Shown piece after piece: positions 8,396-20,399 of a DNA stretch of 24,941 nt. This DNA comes from a virus. Numbering within the stretch: position 1 is the first letter of the stretch; every line of letters begins with the position of its first letter. The translations under genes and the position numbers were made by a program. The notes below the pieces were generated by a model that worked only from the letters and a program-made list of their open reading frames with translations, was not told the DNA's origin and ran no database searches. Where the stretch lies: positions 1 to 24,941 of IMG/VR virus record IMGVR_UViG_3300031212_000020. One strand, 5' to 3'.

Positions 8396-10159
8396 ATGGA
8401 TAAAACAGTTGAATCGGATTACAGAGAGCATTTCGTCGAAGCCCGCACCTTGTATTGGCTGGGCTGGCGTGCAGTGCGCATCTGTGAGCGATTGGGCATC
8501 AGCCAGCAGTTGTTCAACAACTGGAAGAAGCGGTTTGAATGGGACCAAAGCTCGCCAATTCAGAGGGTCGAGAGCTCTATCGAGTCGCGCATGGTTCAGC
8601 TGGTTTTCAAGGATGAAAAAGAAGGTAGGGATTTCAAGGAAATTGACTTGCTAGGCCGGCAGATAGAGCGACTGGCGCGGGTGAACAAGTACGAGACAAC
8701 CAGGCGCGAATCGGATCTGAACCCGAATATTCTTGAAAGTAGCCGGGCGCCACGCAAATCGAAAAACGACATTGGCGAAGAAGGCCTGGAGCTGATCACC
8801 ACTGCTTTTAATGAATCGTTATTCGACTATCAGCACACGTGGAAAGTTGCGGGGCTAACCCATCGCATTCGAAACATTCTTAAATCTCGGCAGATCGGCG
8901 CCACCTGGTACTTTGCCCGGGAAGCAATCGTTGATGCTTTTCACACGAGTAAGAACAAAATCTTCCTGAGTGCATCGAAGGCCCAGGCGCATGTTTTCCG
9001 GCAGTACATCGTGCAGTTCATCAAAGACACCTGCGATGTTGAACTGAAAGGCGACCCGCTCATTCTGCCGAACGGCGCCACCCTGTACTTTCTCGGCACC
9101 AACGTGCGCACGGCCCAGAGCTATCACGGCGATCTTTTCATGGATGAGTACTTCTGGATCCACGACTTTCAGCAATTCCGGAAAGTGGCCAGCGGCATGG
9201 CCATGCATAAGAAGTGGAGTCAAACCTATATTTCCACGCCATCGGCGTTCACCCACGATGCCTACCCCTTCTGGACGGGCGAGCTTTTCAATAAGCGCCG
9301 GGCCAAAGATAAACGGGTAATTGTTGAAACCTCGCACGCTGCACTGGCCAATGGCCTGGCATGCCCGGATGGGCAATGGCGACAGATCGTGACCGTTGAA
9401 GACGCGATGGCCGGAGGTTGTGACCTTTTCGACATAGAACAGCTGAGCATGGAATATTCTCCAGACGAATACGCCAACTTGCTGATGTGCCAGTTTGTCG
9501 ACGACACCCACGCTGTATTCCCGTTGGCAAAATTGCAGCCGTGCATGGTCGACAGCTGGATTGAATGGCGGGATTTGAAGCCCTACACCGACAGGCCTCT
9601 GGGTGATAGTCCGGTATGGATTGGTTACGACCCATCGGGGGCTGGCGAAGACGGAGATGGCGCGGGACTGGCTGTTATTTCCCCCTCACATTCCAACAGT
9701 AAACCGCACCGCGTAATTGAAAAGCTTCGATTGAGGGGCCTTGATTACGAGCAGCAGGCTGATGAGATCCGGAAGCTAACCTTCCGGTATAACGTCGAAT
9801 TCATTGGCATTGATGTGACCGGCCTGGGTGAAGCGGTGGCCGAATTGGTGGAGAAGTTCTTCCCGGGCGTTACCAGGTACCAGTATTCGCTGGATGTGAA
9901 GGCCAGGCTGGTCATCAAAACCCAGAACATCATCGACCGCTGCCGGCTTCAGTTCGACGCCGGCGACACCGCGATCGCCCAGAGTTTCATGGCTATTCGC
10001 CGTGTAATGACAGATTCCCAGAAACACATAACCTACGCTGCCGGTCGCCGTGGCGACACCGGGCATTCGGACATCGCCTGGGCAATTATGCATGCCCTGG
10101 CGAATGAGCCGCTTGAAGGCCCGGCAAAGCATGGCGGCAGCATGATGGAGATTTATTGA
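8396..10159 (+). CDS. P: Terminase large subunit P (ATPase/nuclease)
   Basis: This 587-residue protein matches P2 gpP (590 aa), the motor that cuts concatemers at cos and pumps DNA into the procapsid. An N-terminal helix-turn-helix is visible at about residues 24-46 (WRAVRICERLGISQQLFNNWKKR). The ATPase domain has the deviant Walker A, SRQIGATW (164-171), and Walker B, LFMDEYFW (247-254). The C-terminal nuclease domain has acidic clusters in IGYDPSGAGEDGDGAG and FIGIDVTGLGEAV, and ends with HSDIAWAIMHAL. No clear ribosome site precedes the ATG. P is transcribed divergently from O and overlaps Q by one base. Confidence 0.97.
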   Translation: MDKTVESDYREHFVEARTLYWLGWRAVRICERLGISQQLFNNWKKRFEWDQSSPIQRVESSIESRMVQLVFKDEKEGRDFKEIDLLGRQIERLARVNKYETTRRESDLNPNILESSRAPRKSKNDIGEEGLELITTAFNESLFDYQHTWKVAGLTHRIRNILKSRQIGATWYFAREAIVDAFHTSKNKIFLSASKAQAHVFRQYIVQFIKDTCDVELKGDPLILPNGATLYFLGTNVRTAQSYHGDLFMDEYFWIHDFQQFRKVASGMAMHKKWSQTYISTPSAFTHDAYPFWTGELFNKRRAKDKRVIVETSHAALANGLACPDGQWRQIVTVEDAMAGGCDLFDIEQLSMEYSPDEYANLLMCQFVDDTHAVFPLAKLQPCMVDSWIEWRDLKPYTDRPLGDSPVWIGYDPSGAGEDGDGAGLAVISPSHSNSKPHRVIEKLRLRGLDYEQQADEIRKLTFRYNVEFIGIDVTGLGEAVAELVEKFFPGVTRYQYSLDVKARLVIKTQNIIDRCRLQFDAGDTAIAQSFMAIRRVMTDSQKHITYAAGRRGDTGHSDIAWAIMHALANEPLEGPAKHGGSMMEIY

Positions 10160-11145
10160 TGAGCAACGGCAAGTTTGAAGCATTTACATTCGGCGAACCC
10201 ACACCGGTAATGGATCGGTATGAAATGCTTTACACCGGCTGCTGGGCAGCGGGACAGGATTATTACGAACCACCGGTTGATCTGGGCGCACTGGCAAAAT
10301 CATACCGGGCCACCGCACACCACGGCAGCGCATTGCAGGTTAAACGGAATATTCTGGTGAAGTCCTTCCAGCCAACAAAATACTTAAGCCGTCAGGACTT
10401 TTCGCGTATGGCGCTGGATTACCTGGTGTTCGGTAACCTCTACGGCGAGATGATTACCAATCGGCTGGGTGGCCTGGTAAAGATCAAACCGGTATTGGCC
10501 AAGTACTGTCGACGCGGAATCAAACCTGAAACTTATTGGTGGGTGCATGGTTGGCTGCAGGCAGAAGAGTTTGCAGCCGGAAGCATAATCCACCTGATGG
10601 AACCCGACCTAGACCAGGAATTGTATGGCGTGCCCGACTATATCGGCTCGCTGCAGTCTGCCTGGCTGAACGAAAGCGCCACCCTATTCCGCCGCAAGTA
10701 TTACAACAACGGCAGCCACGCCGGATTCATCATGTACATGACCGACGCGGCACAGCAGCAGGGTGACATCGATGAGCTGCGCACCGCCTTACGCAACAGC
10801 AAAGGCCCGGGCAACTTCAAAAACCTGTTCATGTATGCGCCCAACGGGAAAAAAGACGGGCTGCAGGTAATACCGGTTAGCGAGGTGGCCGCGAAGGATG
10901 AGTTCTGGAGCATCAAGAACGCAACGCGTGACGACCAGCTGGCAGGCCACCGCGTACCGCCGCAGCTGATGGGCATTATCCCCACCAACACCAGTGGGTT
11001 CGGGGATGCAGAAAAGGCGGCTCGAGTATTTGCCGCCAATGAACTGGAGCCGCTGCAAGAGCGCATGCTGGAGATGAACGACATCGCCGGCAAGGAAGTG
11101 CTGAAGTTCAAGCCGTATTCCCTGGGCGAGCCAGTCACGTCCTAG
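10159..11145 (+). CDS. Q: Portal protein Q
   Basis: This 328-residue protein matches the P2 portal gpQ (344 aa), the dodecameric ring at the head vertex through which DNA enters and to which the tail joins. Conserved parts include the N-terminal FTFGEPTPVMDR and YEPPVDLGALAKSYRATAHHGSALQVKRNIL. Later segments are LMEPDLDQELYGVPDYIGSLQSAWLNESATLFRRKYYNNGSHAGFI and MGIIPTNTSGFGDAEKAARVF. The ATG at 10159 shares one base with the P stop (TGATG) and has GGAG about nine bases upstream. A TTG three bases earlier is possible but less likely. A strong terminator follows the gene. Confidence 0.97.
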   Translation: MSNGKFEAFTFGEPTPVMDRYEMLYTGCWAAGQDYYEPPVDLGALAKSYRATAHHGSALQVKRNILVKSFQPTKYLSRQDFSRMALDYLVFGNLYGEMITNRLGGLVKIKPVLAKYCRRGIKPETYWWVHGWLQAEEFAAGSIIHLMEPDLDQELYGVPDYIGSLQSAWLNESATLFRRKYYNNGSHAGFIMYMTDAAQQQGDIDELRTALRNSKGPGNFKNLFMYAPNGKKDGLQVIPVSEVAAKDEFWSIKNATRDDQLAGHRVPPQLMGIIPTNTSGFGDAEKAARVFAANELEPLQERMLEMNDIAGKEVLKFKPYSLGEPVTS

Positions 11146-11167: not shown

Positions 11168-11192
11168 AGCCCGCCACGCGCGGGCTTTTTTT
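11168..11192 (+). terminator. Rho-independent terminator of the P-Q operon
   Basis: A perfect 7-base stem, AGCCCGC/GCGGGCT, with a 5-base loop (CACGC) is followed by a run of T to 11192. It starts 22 bases after the Q stop. It should end P-Q transcription before the non-coding region that holds the origin candidate and attP. Confidence 0.9.
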
Positions 11193-11380
11193 CGTCCCGA
11201 GCAAACCACACGGGTGGGGTTGCTCGTAGTGCCAGCGCGAACTCCCCCCCGCCTTCGGTTCTTGTATGCACTCCTGCCTTAATCCACACCGTATTTACAC
11301 GCTCCAACGGAGGCTCAGAGGGTGAAGCAGACTGATATATCAGCTTTCTGTTCTGTGGCAGCAGGGGGGCTTCGGAAAAG
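11193..11380. other. Non-coding stretch, expected location of cos (not resolved)
   Basis: In P2-type phages, cos lies just past the end of Q. Here the region after the Q terminator contains an inverted repeat, CGAGCAA (11198-11204) / TTGCTCG (11220-11226), around a G-rich stretch (GGGTGGGG). Next come a C run at about 11242-11250 and a perfect 12-base palindrome, CTGATATATCAG (11332-11343). No ribosome-site-led ORF of phage type is visible. I could not match the P2 cos sequence with confidence. The assignment of cos to this stretch is an inference from gene order. Confidence 0.35.
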
Positions 11381-11640
11381 CGTAACAAGCGTAACAAGGG
11401 GAAATAATGCCCTGCAGGCCGCACCACTGCTCACTCTTCCTGTTACAAAAAAGAGTAACAGGGAGTAACAAAAACGTAACAGCATTGATTATAAAGGGTT
11501 TTTTATTTTTAAAAGTTACGTTCGTAAAGTGTAACAGCGTTACGTGTTCGTTACAGATTACTTGCCACTACTAACGATTATAGGTAATTAATATATATAG
11601 ATAATAATAATAGTGTTACATGTGTTACGTTTGTTACTCC
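11381..11640. other. GTAACA iteron cluster with AT-rich core: candidate replication origin
   Basis: Exact GTAACA hexamers occur at 11382, 11391, 11455, 11465, 11476 and 11531. The complement TGTTAC occurs at 11441, 11614, 11623 and 11632. Several near matches lie between (for example 11515, 11539, 11550). The left group is mostly direct, with spacings of 9, 10 and 11 bases. The right group is inverted, with 9-base spacing. Between them are T/A-rich segments, including a TTTTTTATTTTTAAAA-like run (about 11500-11514) and an ATTAATATATATAGATAATAATAAT-type segment (about 11587-11611). Iterons flanking an AT-rich unwinding region are the layout of P4- and SaPI-type origins used by primase-helicase initiators, and this phage encodes such a protein. 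Function is inferred. Confidence 0.6.
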
Positions 11641-11811
11641 TTTCCGAACCCCCCCAACATTCTGAGGGAAACCTCCCAACGCACCTGCACGCACACGCGT
11701 ACACCATCATTGTCTTTCGTCTCACAATAAACGGATTCGCTCGATTAACGCTGACGTGTACGTTGCTGTGGCGAGCAGTGGTGGTGCCGAAGTAGTTCAG
11801 ATTTCACGTAG

Positions 11812-11828
11812 GAGCGCGCCCCGACAGA
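11812..11828 (+). repeat. attP arm-type repeat (left arm)
   Basis: GAGCGCGCCCCGACAGA matches the 17 bases at 12041-12057 with one mismatch, in the same orientation. The two copies flank the tRNA-Cys-like core at distances of about 120 and 50 bases. They are best explained as arm-type binding sites for the integrase or its cofactors. Confidence 0.6.
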
Positions 11829-11947
11829 GTATTCGCAGGTTATTGATTCTAAAGGGACTAGCTTAGGCAAAAAGAGGTGTCAAACAGGATTAAGATTGCG
11901 GTGCAGGTGATTCATTTAGCGTAACAAAAGGCTATCAGATGGAGCAC

Positions 11948-11992
11948 CCTGCAACTCCGTTAACGCCGGTTCGATTCCGACCCGCGCCTCCA
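11948..11992 (+). other. attP: attP core: 3' half of tRNA-Cys
   Basis: The 45 bases from CCTGCAA to CGCCTCCA read as the 3' half of a tRNA-Cys gene. They contain anticodon-loop bases CTGCAA (anticodon GCA), the variable region, the T loop GGTTCGATTCC, the 3' acceptor strand CCGCGCC, and TCCA. The 5' half (acceptor GGCGCGG, D arm) is absent upstream, so this is not a functional tRNA gene. The T stem has one mismatch. A tRNA 3' end beside an integrase gene is the usual attachment core, which restores the host tRNA on integration. Phage head genes lie on one side and int on the other, so the site reads as attP rather than attL or attR. Confidence 0.8.
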
Positions 11993-12040: not shown

Positions 12041-12079
12041 GAGCGCTCCCCGACAGAACCCCGACCAAGTCCCGACAAT
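12041..12079 (+). repeat. attP arm-type repeats (right arm), three CCCGAC sites
   Basis: GAGCGCTCCCCGACAGA (12041-12057) repeats the left-arm element with one mismatch. Two further related decamers follow, CCCCGACCAA (12059-12068) and TCCCGACAAT (12070-12079). They end at the int stop codon. Three closely spaced same-strand copies on one side of the core, with one on the other side, resemble the P and P' arms of tyrosine-recombinase attP sites. Confidence 0.6.
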
Positions 12080-13329
12080 CAATCGCTAGTTTGTGCTGCA
12101 TCGCGTAGTGATTTAAGCGTGGATCGGCTGCGCTCTGGCGGCCGGATCAGGCGGTAGTGGTTACGCATGGCTTCGGTTTCATGGCCACCCTTGTTGTTCT
12201 CGCCCTGGGACACGAACTCGTCGGTTAAGCCTTTCTTGCGCAAGTCTCGCAACTGATACTGCCCTTTATAGCCAGCGTCCTCACAGGCTTGCGCCCAGCA
12301 CCCCTGCATAAATCGATGCTTCACCGGCTGGGTGCGGCTGCGCATGTCGAAGTAGCGGGGATAAACCATCAGATACGGCGAGATAATGCCCTGCTCTCGC
12401 TTCCAGTTGCGAAACCAATCAACCAGCTGGCGCAGTTCGGTGTTCATTTCCAGCAAAATACCCACGCCGGTTTTGTGCCGGGAGAAGGTAATTTCTCCAA
12501 ATTCGCCACCATCATCGTTTATTTGGCTTTCTTTCAGGCCGAAAACGTCAATGGGTTGCTGGCTCATCATGTAAATCAGGTCGCATATTTTCGCGCGCCA
12601 AGCACCGTCGCATGCTCGGCGGTTCAGGTTGTGCACCAGTAGGTGTTCGGTAATGGCTACGTAAACATCGTTAGGTATCAGCACTTCGCGCTTTGGTTCG
12701 ACTGATTTCTGGATGTCGGGAATGGGGTTTCTGTCGATCACGCCATCCTGGATGGCATGGCCAAATACCCTGGATAACGTATTGCGCAGGCCGTTGTAGT
12801 GAGTGGGCTTGGTTAACCAGGGCGATAGGAGTTTGCGAACCTTGCGCAAAACGTGGGGATCGCAAAGGAAGAACTGGGAATCGTCGCTGGCTGCCAGCTG
12901 CTGCGCGTCGGCGGCGTAATCGGTGCGGGTGGCCATGGCTACGGGCCTGCCTCGGTTGCGGCCGCGCTGGCTTAGTACGTGGCACTCGTTCCAGGTAACA
13001 CTGCCTTCGGATAGTTGATGGCCAAGCACCGTTGTGCGCCACTTTTCCAAGTAGGCCTTGAGGGTTATTCGTTTGATGGTTTCGGTAGATCTGGAAATGG
13101 CAAGGCTACCCGCTAACAGATCTGCCTCGAAATCGCCGCCGTCCTGCTCCCACATCTGCTGCAATATTCCCCAGCGCCGGATGGCCTGCTGCTTATCGCG
13201 GGTTTGTAGGCTGCCTTGCTTGCGGGTTTTGGGATGGCGCACGTAAAAAACGCCACTGCGGGCGTCTATGTACAGGCCAGGGTAGCGCTGAAGCCACTCC
13301 TGACCTTGTTTCCGTTGGTTTTTGGCCAT
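12079..13329 (-). CDS. int: Tyrosine recombinase integrase (atypical active site)
   Basis: This 416-residue phage integrase should recombine attP with a host tRNA-Cys gene. The C-terminal catalytic part shows Lys286 (SRHKTG), Arg364 (in RDLRKKGLTD), His383 (GGHETEAM) and the nucleophile Tyr392 (RNHYRL). The box I arginine, normally in TGQRP-type text, is replaced by Gln258 (MSQQPIDVFGL). The first His of the HxxR motif is Arg361. The ATG at 13327-13329 lies one base after the xis stop. A longer frame to 13539 only overlaps xis. No ribosome site is evident, so translation may be coupled to xis. The gene is last in the early operon, beside attP. Activity is uncertain because of the missing arginine. 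Confidence 0.9.
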   Translation of the reverse strand: MAKNQRKQGQEWLQRYPGLYIDARSGVFYVRHPKTRKQGSLQTRDKQQAIRRWGILQQMWEQDGGDFEADLLAGSLAISRSTETIKRITLKAYLEKWRTTVLGHQLSEGSVTWNECHVLSQRGRNRGRPVAMATRTDYAADAQQLAASDDSQFFLCDPHVLRKVRKLLSPWLTKPTHYNGLRNTLSRVFGHAIQDGVIDRNPIPDIQKSVEPKREVLIPNDVYVAITEHLLVHNLNRRACDGAWRAKICDLIYMMSQQPIDVFGLKESQINDDGGEFGEITFSRHKTGVGILLEMNTELRQLVDWFRNWKREQGIISPYLMVYPRYFDMRSRTQPVKHRFMQGCWAQACEDAGYKGQYQLRDLRKKGLTDEFVSQGENNKGGHETEAMRNHYRLIRPPERSRSTLKSLRDAAQTSD

Positions 13330-13330
13330 G

Positions 13331-13570
13331 TTACTGCAGCTGCTGCGCGAGATTTTGAAGGAAACCCAGCTCCTGGTTGCTCTCAGGCAATCCTTTAAGC
13401 CGGCGTTCCATTGTCTCGAAATACGTGTCCAGGTCAATTCGCCACCGTCGACCGTCGCGGAATGCTCCTGGTATGTCCGGACACCGGTTGCGGATGGACA
13501 CCAGCGAAGGCGGCTCTTTGTCGTCGCAGTACACCACATCGATGAACGTTTGAAGGCTGACAGGTCTCAT
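13331..13570 (-). CDS. xis: Putative excisionase (winged-helix type)
   Basis: This 79-residue protein sits directly before int. It reads SLQTFIDVVYCDDKEPPSLVSIRNRC and then IPGAFRDGRRWRIDLDTYFETMERRL. This has the helix-then-wing pattern of MerR-like phage excisionases, in which a short helix is followed by a G(R/K)xWxID strand. Excisionases bend DNA at the attachment sites and steer the integrase toward excision. The ATG overlaps the preceding stop by four bases. The call rests on the fold-like pattern and the position beside int. Confidence 0.7.
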   Translation of the reverse strand: MRPVSLQTFIDVVYCDDKEPPSLVSIRNRCPDIPGAFRDGRRWRIDLDTYFETMERRLKGLPESNQELGFLQNLAQQLQ

Positions 13571-16825: not shown

Positions 16826-19537
16826 CTAGGCTTCGGCTTCAAAAATCCAGCAACGCACGGTGGCGCTGCCCAGGGCATTTCCTTCGCGGCGGAGGACGCT
16901 CCGCACGGTTCGGCTCGATTCAATAAATTTTCGGCTGCGGCTGGTTTTCAGGTGCCGCTTCAATTCGGTGATGGGCGGAATGCGCAGCTTTGCTTCAGCG
17001 CACACTTGCTCGAAGTGCTTAAGGTTGACGGCAATCAGGCTGTCGTCGTCGTAGTGGTTCAGGGTGGCGGTGCTGCTCTGGCCTTCGATGTAGTCGAACG
17101 CTTCCCAGAATTCCTGAACCATGGGGTGGTCAGCGTTCACGGCGGTTTGCCGTTCGATGGCCATGCCCTGCACCATTTCACGGGCGGGTTCCAGGTAACT
17201 TTCGGGCAGCAGCTGCAGGCCGTCTGGGCCCAGGCAGTCCAGCAGCGCCATAATCTGGCTGTGGTTTTTGGCTATCCGGTGAATGCGTATGTCTGGTAAC
17301 TCGGAAAGCGCTTTTTCATAGATAGGTGACCGCTCGCAGATAATCCGCATCAGCGAGGCTTCCGCCGTGGCCGCTTGCAGAATAAAGCCGCTCACCTGTT
17401 CCATGGGTGTGCGCTCCAGGCGTTCGGCCAGGGCCTTGGTTGTTTCGCTGTGGCCTTGGCGCGTTACGTTCAGGTGCACAATCCGCTGCAGTACGGCATC
17501 GCTTGCCGACACCTGGGCGTTCTGGCTGATCACCACGGCGCCGCGGAACGGTGGCTCGTAAGTGTCGTTGCCGCCGTTCTTCATGCCACGGCTGCGAACA
17601 GACCGGCCGTTGTAGGCCGTTTTTAGTTCGTCCCAATCAAACTGGCGCTGCTTTGCGCCGGCGCCGTCCTGGTCCCGATCGGACTCGATCAGCACTACCG
17701 GCAAGTTGGACACCTGGGCGAAGTTACGAGCCCGGGCTGCAAGGGTGGCTTTGCTGGGGTCGAATCCTTCGTAATCCTGCCGGCCAACCAGTTTCCACAG
17801 GAATTCGATCAGCGTGGATTTACCAGAACCGGCTTCGCCCACTATCTCGATGAACGGGAAAGACTTGTGCGCCCGCCGGATCTGCTCGGCAAACAGGCTG
17901 CCCAGCCAGTACGCCAGGGCAATAACGCCCTTAGGGCCAAAACAGTTGGCCAAGTCCAATGCCCAGCCGTGCTGGTAGTCGGCACGGTTGTTGTTGATTT
18001 TCAGTGCCACCGACTCAGAGAGCGTTTTCACGCTCATTCGGCCGATGTCGTAATAGTCCTCGTCATTCAGTTCGTAGATGCTGCCGTGGCTTACGGCCAA
18101 CTCTGGGAACACCCAGGTTTCGTGCTCTTTGCTATAGCCAATGAAGTCGATAGTCTCTACGGTTTTAATGCCGCTGATCTGTTGTTTCAGCAGCCGGTCT
18201 AACTGCTGGCTGCTGCCGGTCCATACCGCACCAGGTGCAACGCTTAGCAGGCGCTTTTTGAATTCGCTGGCGCTGGCCAGCTGGCCGCCACTGAAGGTGT
18301 TTTTTACCGGCCGGCCATCGTGTGGGAATTCCACGCGGGTGTAGTACCAGCTTTCATCCGTCACTTTGTTGGCCAGGTAATACAAAAAACTGACGTGGCT
18401 GTTGGCGATTTCAGAAACGGCGTTGCACTGGTCCAGCGCTCTGTCGCGGATTTCGCGATCGGTCAGGGTTTCGCTGGATTCTTCCTGGTCATTTACGGCT
18501 TTCTGAAATTCGTCCATGTTCAGGCGGAACCAGAATAGGCGGTTGCCGTAATCGAACGGGAAGTCGCGCTTTCCGGTGTGGTTGAAAATGTGGGTGGCTT
18601 TTTCGCCAGCGCTGCGAGCGATGACCAGGTCACCCTGGTGCCGTGGCTCTTTGGTCAGCAGTTCGCCGTCTTCACTGACCAGTTCGCCGCGCTGCCATGC
18701 GTCGTTCCAGTCGCGCTTCTCTTTACCCACCGGCGCGATAACAGCGGCGCCGATCAGCCAGCCCGCGGCGCGGGAAATGCGGGCGAACTTCTGAACGTAA
18801 CGAACGCCAGCGCTGTCGCCGTCTAAGGCCCAAATTAAACGCGGGGGTTTATTGCCAGCGGCTTCACACAGACCAGAGACCTGTTCCAGAAGCTTTTCCG
18901 GGTAGTTGTTGCAGCTGAACGCGGCAACGGCAGCAATGCCAGCGTGGTACAACGCGATGGCGTCGAATATGCCCTCCACTATCCACAGCTCTGACACCTG
19001 GGAAAGGTCCAGCCCGGGCGGTACCCAAGCCTGACCACGGAAGTTGGCACCTTTGTTGAAGTGGGCTTTCATCTTGCCGAAGCGGTCCGGCTTATCGATG
19101 ATGCGTTCCCAGTAGTCGGTACCGTTAATGGCAAAGCGCACTGTTGCTGATGAAATATTGCGGTGGTAATCCCAGTAGGTTTCCTGGCTGTACCAGCCCT
19201 GAACTTTGTCCAGGGCAAAGCCGCGGCCGTGCTCCATGTACGCATCGGCCACTTCGGTACCGCTGGCCTTTTCGCCTGGCTTTAAGTCGCGCTTTGCGAA
19301 GCGTTCTGTCCAGCTGTCGAACAGTTCCGGGAACAATTGCTTTACGTGGTGTGAATCGCCGCACTTTGATTCCCGCCCGCAGCGGATCATCCAGGGCGCA
19401 TCCAGCGAGGTGAACGCCTCTTTTTTTCCGCAGCTGGGGCACAGCAACCGGCGCACATATTTCGCGTCGGTGCTCTCTTTGCCGCCAAAGTCGCTTTTTA
19501 GCCGGGAAATGATGTCCGACCGCAGGTGGTCTTGCAT
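16826..19537 (-). CDS. Replicative primase-helicase (TOPRIM plus SF3-like ATPase)
   Basis: This 903-residue protein is the probable replication initiator. The N-terminal zinc-binding unit has Cys33, Cys36, Cys53 and Cys59 (CPSCG...CGRESKC). A TOPRIM primase core follows at about 183-260, with VEGIFDAIAL (Glu188, Asp192) and the acidic pair in ALDGDSAG. A long middle region precedes a helicase-type ATPase: Walker A GEAGSGKST (about 567-575), Walker B PVVLIESD (about 613-620), and a sensor/arginine-finger segment VVISQNAQ...LQRIVHL. The order and content resemble P4 alpha and SaPI replication proteins, not the P2 gene A rolling-circle nuclease. The ATG at 19535-19537 has GGAG seven bases upstream. 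A longer frame to 19714 overlaps the preceding gene. Confidence 0.93.
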   Translation of the reverse strand: MQDHLRSDIISRLKSDFGGKESTDAKYVRRLLCPSCGKKEAFTSLDAPWMIRCGRESKCGDSHHVKQLFPELFDSWTERFAKRDLKPGEKASGTEVADAYMEHGRGFALDKVQGWYSQETYWDYHRNISSATVRFAINGTDYWERIIDKPDRFGKMKAHFNKGANFRGQAWVPPGLDLSQVSELWIVEGIFDAIALYHAGIAAVAAFSCNNYPEKLLEQVSGLCEAAGNKPPRLIWALDGDSAGVRYVQKFARISRAAGWLIGAAVIAPVGKEKRDWNDAWQRGELVSEDGELLTKEPRHQGDLVIARSAGEKATHIFNHTGKRDFPFDYGNRLFWFRLNMDEFQKAVNDQEESSETLTDREIRDRALDQCNAVSEIANSHVSFLYYLANKVTDESWYYTRVEFPHDGRPVKNTFSGGQLASASEFKKRLLSVAPGAVWTGSSQQLDRLLKQQISGIKTVETIDFIGYSKEHETWVFPELAVSHGSIYELNDEDYYDIGRMSVKTLSESVALKINNNRADYQHGWALDLANCFGPKGVIALAYWLGSLFAEQIRRAHKSFPFIEIVGEAGSGKSTLIEFLWKLVGRQDYEGFDPSKATLAARARNFAQVSNLPVVLIESDRDQDGAGAKQRQFDWDELKTAYNGRSVRSRGMKNGGNDTYEPPFRGAVVISQNAQVSASDAVLQRIVHLNVTRQGHSETTKALAERLERTPMEQVSGFILQAATAEASLMRIICERSPIYEKALSELPDIRIHRIAKNHSQIMALLDCLGPDGLQLLPESYLEPAREMVQGMAIERQTAVNADHPMVQEFWEAFDYIEGQSSTATLNHYDDDSLIAVNLKHFEQVCAEAKLRIPPITELKRHLKTSRSRKFIESSRTVRSVLRREGNALGSATVRCWIFEAEA

Positions 19538-19920: not shown

Positions 19921-20214
19921 TTACGGCGTTTGTTCTTTGTCTTCACCCAGCAGGGCCATTTGCAGGTGGCGCTGTATGCTTTCGGTGAACGGAATGCGCT
20001 TGTCTTTCTCATGGCCGGTGTAAGAAAGCCGTGCCACGTGTTCGATGTGAATCACGCCGCGGTAGCCGCACTCGATGTCTTGGCACATCACGTATCCGCG
20101 CTTCAGCAGTGGGTCTATCTCCTGGCTGGTGCGCATCCGACAAATGCCGCCGCAATCGGGGCAGAAAATGCGCATGTAATTTCGCTTCATGGGCGTTTTA
20201 ACTTTGGCTTTCAC
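19921..20214 (-). CDS. ogr: Ogr/Delta-type zinc-finger late gene activator
   Basis: This 97-residue protein carries Cys18-X2-Cys21-X22-Cys44-X4-Cys49 (FCPDCGG...VMCQDIECGYRG), exactly the spacing of the P2 Ogr and P4 Delta zinc finger. Ogr binds dyads upstream of late promoters and contacts the RNA polymerase alpha subunit. A GTG start at 20212-20214 is chosen. It overlaps the upstream stop by four bases (GTGA) and has GGGAG nine bases upstream. An internal ATG gives an 89-aa form. In P2, ogr lies next to D under its own control. Here it sits in the early operon before the primase, so early transcription should directly trigger late genes. Confidence 0.88.
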   Translation of the reverse strand: MKAKVKTPMKRNYMRIFCPDCGGICRMRTSQEIDPLLKRGYVMCQDIECGYRGVIHIEHVARLSYTGHEKDKRIPFTESIQRHLQMALLGEDKEQTP

Positions 20215-20399
20215 TTGCGTGGGCTCCCTACTGCGTGAATGGCACGGTTGCGCCCGGTTAACTTCAGGCTGGATTGCTTCAGCCGCTGTTTCAGCAGCCA
20301 TTCGGCCGCCTGGTCAATAGTCGCTAATCTCTCTTGGTGTCGGATGGATTCGAGCAATTGCTCCTGTTCTTCTGTCAGCTCGACGTTCAGTTCAGGCAT
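20211..20399 (-). CDS. Small conserved early protein, function unknown
   Basis: This 62-residue protein reads MPELNVELTEEQEQLLESIRHQERLATIDQAAEWLLKQRLKQSSLKLTGRNRAIHAV. It has a short strand, then two helices and a basic tail, a pattern like small ribbon-helix-helix or antitoxin-type DNA-binding proteins. From memory, similar proteins are found near ogr in other P2-like phages. A GAGG ribosome site lies about nine bases before the ATG. Its stop overlaps the ogr GTG by four bases, so the two are translationally coupled. Confidence 0.7.
   Translation of the reverse strand: MPELNVELTEEQEQLLESIRHQERLATIDQAAEWLLKQRLKQSSLKLTGRNRAIHAVGSPRK

Follow-up and report, generated by a model that had tools for sequence, protein, structure and literature searches.

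A two-sided iteron array as the probable replication origin of P2-type phages with a primase-helicase

We propose that a cluster of GTAACA repeats in a viral DNA of 24,941 nucleotides (IMG/VR record IMGVR_UViG_3300031212_000020; 'the window' denotes this whole stretch) is very probably a replication origin, which in this P2-type temperate phage would be recognised by the phage's own primase-helicase and serve theta replication, and that the P2 rolling-circle system was either lost from the phage or never present in it. Among temperate phages, P2-like ones are the textbook case of rolling-circle replication. The window is of P2 (Peduoviridae) type by its virion genes, with the Q portal, the P terminase and a neighbouring gene order of O-N-M-L type. 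We also consider it likely that a large, self-sufficient P2-type lineage uses a theta replicon of the satellite kind, as in P4 and the phage-inducible chromosomal islands (PICIs), whose plan is fixed and whose iteron word is rewritten along with the initiator.

RESULTS

Repeats in the window

Ten exact copies of GTAACA or its complement TGTTAC fall within 256 bp (11382-11637), six on the plus strand (11382, 11391, 11455, 11465, 11476 and 11531) and four on the minus strand (11441, 11614, 11623 and 11632). The whole window holds 17 such hexamers against 6.65 +/- 2.8 by shuffling, and none of 100 shuffles reaches 17. Scaled to 256 bp the shuffled expectation is ~0.07, in agreement with an earlier note on this DNA that had put it below one, and the log10 P of the cluster is about -13 with local base composition as background. 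The spacing is 9 in the outer sets and 10 or 11 in the inner set, which is the helical spacing of 9-11 that the note had described. Its claim that the repeats change orientation across an AT-rich centre holds in the main, the left copies being mostly plus and the right copies mostly minus, but one copy on each side (11441 and 11531) runs the other way. Shortened to GTAAC, the word occurs at 13 sites, the three beyond the hexamers (11515, 11539 and 11550) all being on the minus strand. An eleventh GTAACA at 11921 adjoins attP; relatives that have the same integrase do not conserve it, and it was excluded from the origin.

The cluster region has a GC content of 0.39, against 0.55 for the window, and sits within a 292-bp imperfect palindrome with an AT-rich centre. 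The ends of the palindrome, which the earlier note does not mention, are a 33-bp inverted repeat, 88% complementary (11364-11396 / 11623-11655), the left arm of which reads GGGGGGCTTCGGAAAAGC-GTAACA-AGC-GTAACA. As DNA the region is predicted to fold strongly (z -6), but the palindrome accounts for this, and the fold was given no weight. The region has no match in Rfam.

Conservation in relatives

The phrog_1139 primase is full-length in the Peduoviridae phages Dobby, Smp131, phi3, ev239, PfPro and Halomonas 4908, among others. Apart from ZY1, a record that appears cut at its ends, every one of those phages has a hexamer cluster of its own, built on the same origin plan with a differing word. 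In none of these Peduoviridae records is an origin annotated; the Smp131 paper describes cos and attP (PMC3931495), and searching that paper turned up no account of a phage origin. Deposited annotations can mislead, as where a terminase is named transposase and the primase twinkle protein (L003 3313-5094, 33035-35701; L002). The 'Bacillus' phage ZY1 is closely similar to a Halomonas phage, which casts doubt on its stated host.

A further 160 primase loci were collected and the DNA beyond Q was then retrieved. Viral contigs often stop just short of the origin through prophage trimming (G002 compared with its genome, L209), and absence from them was left unscored. In bacterial genomes carrying the primase, word scans without palindromic words find a comparable cluster near Q in 35 of 39 prophage regions, 28 of the 35 being stronger than any of 40 shuffles; conservation beside Q, which the earlier note had proposed as a check, is thus borne out. 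A fortieth region (L247) was excluded, as the primase locus of that genome lies elsewhere with a cluster of its own (L164). The nearest relatives are two Marinobacter prophages (L209, L210), which have the word GTAACA like the window. Q is present in 35/35 primase-bearing viral contigs of at least 29 kb and in 48/50 genomes, and the relatives have complete P2 head and tail genes, so that they are not satellites of the PICI kind.

One plan, many words

Iteron words differ by lineage (GTAACA, GGTAAC, GGTAAT, CCTAACC, GGTGAT, GGAACA, CTGACA and GTCACA), and spacings of 9, 10, 11, 12 and 22 dominate across origins with different words. Over 60 assembled origins the same-strand spacings are 9 (60 pairs), 11 (55), 12 (28), 10 (26) and 22 (20). 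On the left side, most lineages have a GC-rich boundary with CGGAAAA, two iterons of period 9 and an inner set with periods 10-12; past the AT-rich core come an inner set and an outer pair, both inverted, and then the mirrored boundary. Exact integration host factor (IHF) consensus sites number 38 in the 60 origins, against 1.7 expected. Elements of the form TATAAAATCAATGACTTA, which is the IHF consensus, recur between iteron sets (for example L181 2317-2591). The consensus has no good match in the window origin or its clade, where the AT-rich core occupies the place of the relatives' element. When the window is aligned with three near relatives, no change is seen in 80% of the GTAAC columns, while 24% of the remaining origin columns are invariant (p=1.5e-15). 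One locus of the Pseudomonas group (L199 16050-16560; G010) apparently has two words, AGTAATA in outer pairs of period 9 and GTGATA in the inner set.

Could such an array be regulatory, an operator or partition site with no origin function? Inverted iterons look operator-like, and two promoter-like patterns lie inside the cluster where 0.9 are expected by chance. Against this, no reading frame is driven from the cluster in a conserved way, its architecture equals that of the P4 origin repeats, and it excludes gpA. We give this explanation only a slim chance.

Iterons follow the primase and exclude gpA

The repeat words go with the primase and not with the integrase. With the integrase corrected for, origins with more similar primases have more similar iterons (partial r 0.53, p 0.0005; Mantel test), while the correlation with integrase similarity, corrected for the primase, is 0.05 (p 0.15). 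The viral origins in this set were picked because they had been found, and the unbiased cluster rate is that of the genome set. Iterons of GGTAA type are common to phages with two unrelated integrase types.

The gpA family (PF05840) and the phrog_1139 primase are mutually exclusive. The profile scores in 7/7 classical P2 control phages, but in none of 34 primase-bearing relatives, including the six phages named above, and no gpA-family protein is present in the window; the earlier note's statement that the window lacks a nuclease like P2 A therefore extends to the relatives. The gpA-type phages are without an iteron cluster, and the notable repeat-scan matches in them are Int arm repeats only. 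KS14 and Musica, P2-like Burkholderia phages, carry a different primase/helicase, with ParA in addition in KS14 (L250 270-3041, 30436-31086); this suggests a third replicon type under P2 virions.

Neighbours of the cluster: attP and cos

The order attP - origin - cos - Q, close to what the earlier note had expected, is supported by comparison with relatives. The window reads Q, cos, origin, tRNA-type attP, int, and therefore represents unintegrated or concatemeric phage DNA. The cos assignment is made because of its alignment with near relatives; compared directly with P2 or Smp131 cos, the window candidate does not rise above chance. The cluster lies 5.2 kb from the primase-helicase gene, that is, not immediately 3' of the initiator gene; in phi3 and a Comamonas prophage (L164) it lies directly 3' of the primase.

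The origin is distinct from the integrase arm sites and from cos. It is very unlikely that the hexamers serve the nearby attP as arm-type sites for integrase or excisionase, although they lie ~0.3 kb from it and arm sites of 186-like phages also make small repeat clusters (AGTGGC at attP in EtG and 186). In Dobby (L004 50-212) and PfPro (L008 1862-2071), ACGTAACA repeats flank the tRNA-type attP and look like integrase arm-type sites. The integrases of these two phages are 70% identical and have the arm word in common, yet each phage also has a separate cluster and the origin words differ, GGTAAT against CTGACA. The phi3 cluster is found beyond int and past the primase, in Smp131 2.3 kb separate the cluster from the mapped attP (PMC3931495), and cluster words are independent of integrase type. 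The hexamer cluster neither flanks an att core nor follows the integrase, as arm-type repeats do, and the window has other candidate arm repeats on both sides of attP.

The cluster adjoins cos and Q in most relatives, which could make it a packaging element, the terminase-binding part of cos. We find this scarcely credible: gpA-type P2 phages have the same terminase and portal system and lack such a cluster, the cluster is distant from Q in phi3, in the Comamonas prophage and in the Pseudomonas group (G010), and the words track the primase. Arm sites, cos or packaging sites, operators and RNA features were all considered, and were found weaker than the origin as an explanation of the repeats.

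The primase-helicase

An AlphaFold2 model of the window protein (predicted local distance difference test score, pLDDT, 86.7) has its best fold matches in the PDB in Cch of the staphylococcal cassette chromosome SCCmec (E 4e-14, TMt 0.62) and Rep of the staphylococcal pathogenicity island SaPIbov1 (2e-12, TMt 0.63), followed by SaPI5 PriRep1 and the zinc/Toprim part of DnaG. As a whole-protein model it has the SaPI Rep fold, an AAA+ domain with a C-terminal DNA-binding domain. The earlier note had called the protein SaPI- and P4-like; its predicted fold does resemble those of SCCmec Cch and SaPI Rep, and its Toprim domain resembles P4 alpha. In SCCmec Cch2, as in SaPI Rep, the C-terminus is the part that binds iterons (PMC7581432), and by analogy the phage protein probably works in this way too; its C-terminal domain alone has a weak resemblance to Cch and to the winged helices of ORC. 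An 8.4-kb viral contig (L009, IMGVR_UViG_3300031404_000073) encodes a primase identical to that of the window.

A small but real probability goes to an origin whose iterons are read not by the primase, which would act later, but by host DnaA or a small protein of the phage. Co-variation singles out no primase domain, and early genes of unknown function lie close by. Set against this, the primase is the gene by which these phages were found and is intact in nearly all of them, in SaPI and SCCmec it is Rep and Cch2 themselves that bind the iterons (PMC7581432), and a DnaA-box scan of the origin gave no match. Residues 101-140 of the primase were considered as the iteron-reading region and not trusted, their sliding co-variation peak being only modest.

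DISCUSSION

The origin that we propose has counterparts in several replicons, none of which it copies. P4 (alpha, ori1 and crr; NC_001609) resembles the window in its short direct and inverted iterons, with period 9 in crr and 10/11 in ori, and in having a large Toprim primase-helicase and no nicking initiator. The annotated P4 type-1 repeats match the origin spacings (P4 ori at 9310/9320/9331, periods 10 and 11), and the detector used for the clusters returns crr, unaided, as the top match of the P4 genome. Unlike the window, P4 has the type 1 iteron GGTGAACA, which is not found as the window's word, and needs two regions 4.5 kb apart, whereas the window has both sets in one 290-bp segment. 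SaPI and PICI replicons of pri-rep-ori type, for which we follow the origin definition of PMC6092414, have an initiator helicase with the fold of the window protein (8tch, 7ola, 7pds). In the phages, by contrast, the replicon is carried by complete P2-type genomes rather than satellites, the primase is of DnaG/Toprim type and fused to the helicase, and the origin is mostly beside attP/cos rather than immediately past the 3' end of the initiator gene; in SaPIs the origin follows rep on its 3' side (PMC7581432). SCCmec Cch/Cch2 (5dgk; PMC7581432) gives the best fold match, is a self-loading AAA+ helicase and binds direct repeats through its C-terminus, but its putative origin has only three repeats and it has a separate polymerase-primase partner. 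Phages P2 and 186 share the virion, terminase and cos systems with the window; they differ in replicating by gpA rolling circle, with the nick site inside A, where the window has an iteron array without gpA.

The mechanism that we infer, including binding, melting, direction, theta mode and the iteron-reading domain, would run as follows. The primase-helicase would bind the 6-7-bp iterons on either side of the AT-rich core and load as two AAA+ rings facing opposite ways. The loaded rings would melt the core, the Toprim domain would prime both strands, and the circularised genome would replicate in theta mode.

Several observations weigh against an origin read by the primase-helicase. No cluster is detectable in 4/39 prophage regions, and 7 of the 35 clusters found there are weak taken singly. 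The Mantel tests leave some shared ancestry in, and co-variation with the iterons is equally strong for the N-terminus and the C-terminus of the primase, so that it does not locate the reading domain. The footprint alignment behind the column invariance may favour identical words. Similarity to P4 alpha is confined to Toprim (28% identity, 142 columns, probability 75%), and the C-terminal domain alone did not match the origin-binding domain of P4 alpha and has no significant match in the PDB, the best being 5dgk at E 0.09.

What are the implications of such an origin for P2-type phages? The PICI literature calls the two-sided iteron organisation unique to PICIs. That dozens of autonomous P2-type phages have it too implies an exchange of two or more replication systems under a single virion type, and makes replicon exchange between satellites and helper phages testable. 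The earlier note had presented the mosaic as undescribed; P2 virion genes with such a primase are in fact common and already deposited, while the origin and its rule appear to be undescribed, as no description of such an origin in P2-like phages was found in the open literature, subscription papers not being covered. The origin can now enter the annotation of P2-type phages with the phrog_1139 primase, and at least eight iteron words on one fixed geometry allow one to ask how an initiator helicase reads its origin. If true, our proposal would tie satellites directly to their helper phages, and would supply a set of naturally occurring initiator-origin pairs that might not interfere with one another.

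Features of the window

The features are collected in Table 1.

Table 1. Proposed origin and neighbouring features, in window coordinates
Feature	Position	Strand	Remarks
Putative replication origin	11364..11655		Imperfect palindrome of GTAACA iterons; GC-rich inverted ends GGGGGGCTTCGGAAAAG / CTCCTTTCCGAACCCCCCC
Outer iteron pair GTAACA-N3-GTAACA, period 9	11382..11396	+	60 neighbour pairs have this period in the 60 origins
Inner iteron set	11441..11481		11441 inverted; 11455, 11465, 11476 direct (periods 10, 11)
AT-rich core between inner sets	11483..11514		Minus strand AAAATAAAAAACCCTTTATAATCAATG
Second inner set, degenerate	11515..11554		GTAAC(T) 11515 -, GTAACA 11531 +, GTAAC(G) 11539 -, GTAAC(G) 11550 -
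Second AT-rich stretch, from degenerate inner set to outer iterons	11571..11613
Outer iterons, three copies, period 9	11614..11637	-
Primase-helicase, proposed initiator	16826..19537	-	phrog_1139; zinc finger, Toprim, AAA+ helicase and C-terminal domain
Probable cos AAGGCGGGGGGGAGTTCGCGC	11235..11255	-	Aligns with relatives' GC-rich cos-like sequence
attP core, 3' part of tRNA gene CCTGCAACTCCGTTAACGCCGGTTCGATTCCGACCCGCGCCTCCA	11948..11992	+	Common to two Marinobacter prophages
Candidate integrase arm-type site CCCCGACAGAGT	11819..11830	+	More copies at 12048-12059 and 12059-12070, across attP
Tyrosine integrase	12079..13539	-	phrog_1
Portal protein Q	10156..11145	+	P2 portal family
Terminase large subunit P	8396..10159	+	P2 terminase family
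Terminator-like hairpin 3' of Q	11168..11186	+	Pattern only; ~1 expected by chance

Three further observations concern the rest of the window. Five clustered copies of CGGTAC inside the primase coding region (19018-19300) probably reflect chance or codon use. An Ogr/Delta-like zinc-finger activator (19921-20301) lies directly upstream of the replication genes; in P2 it is beside gene D. Between the repressor and gene D, a protein with a weak BRCT-like match (PF12738; 22210-22707) is an unusual cargo.
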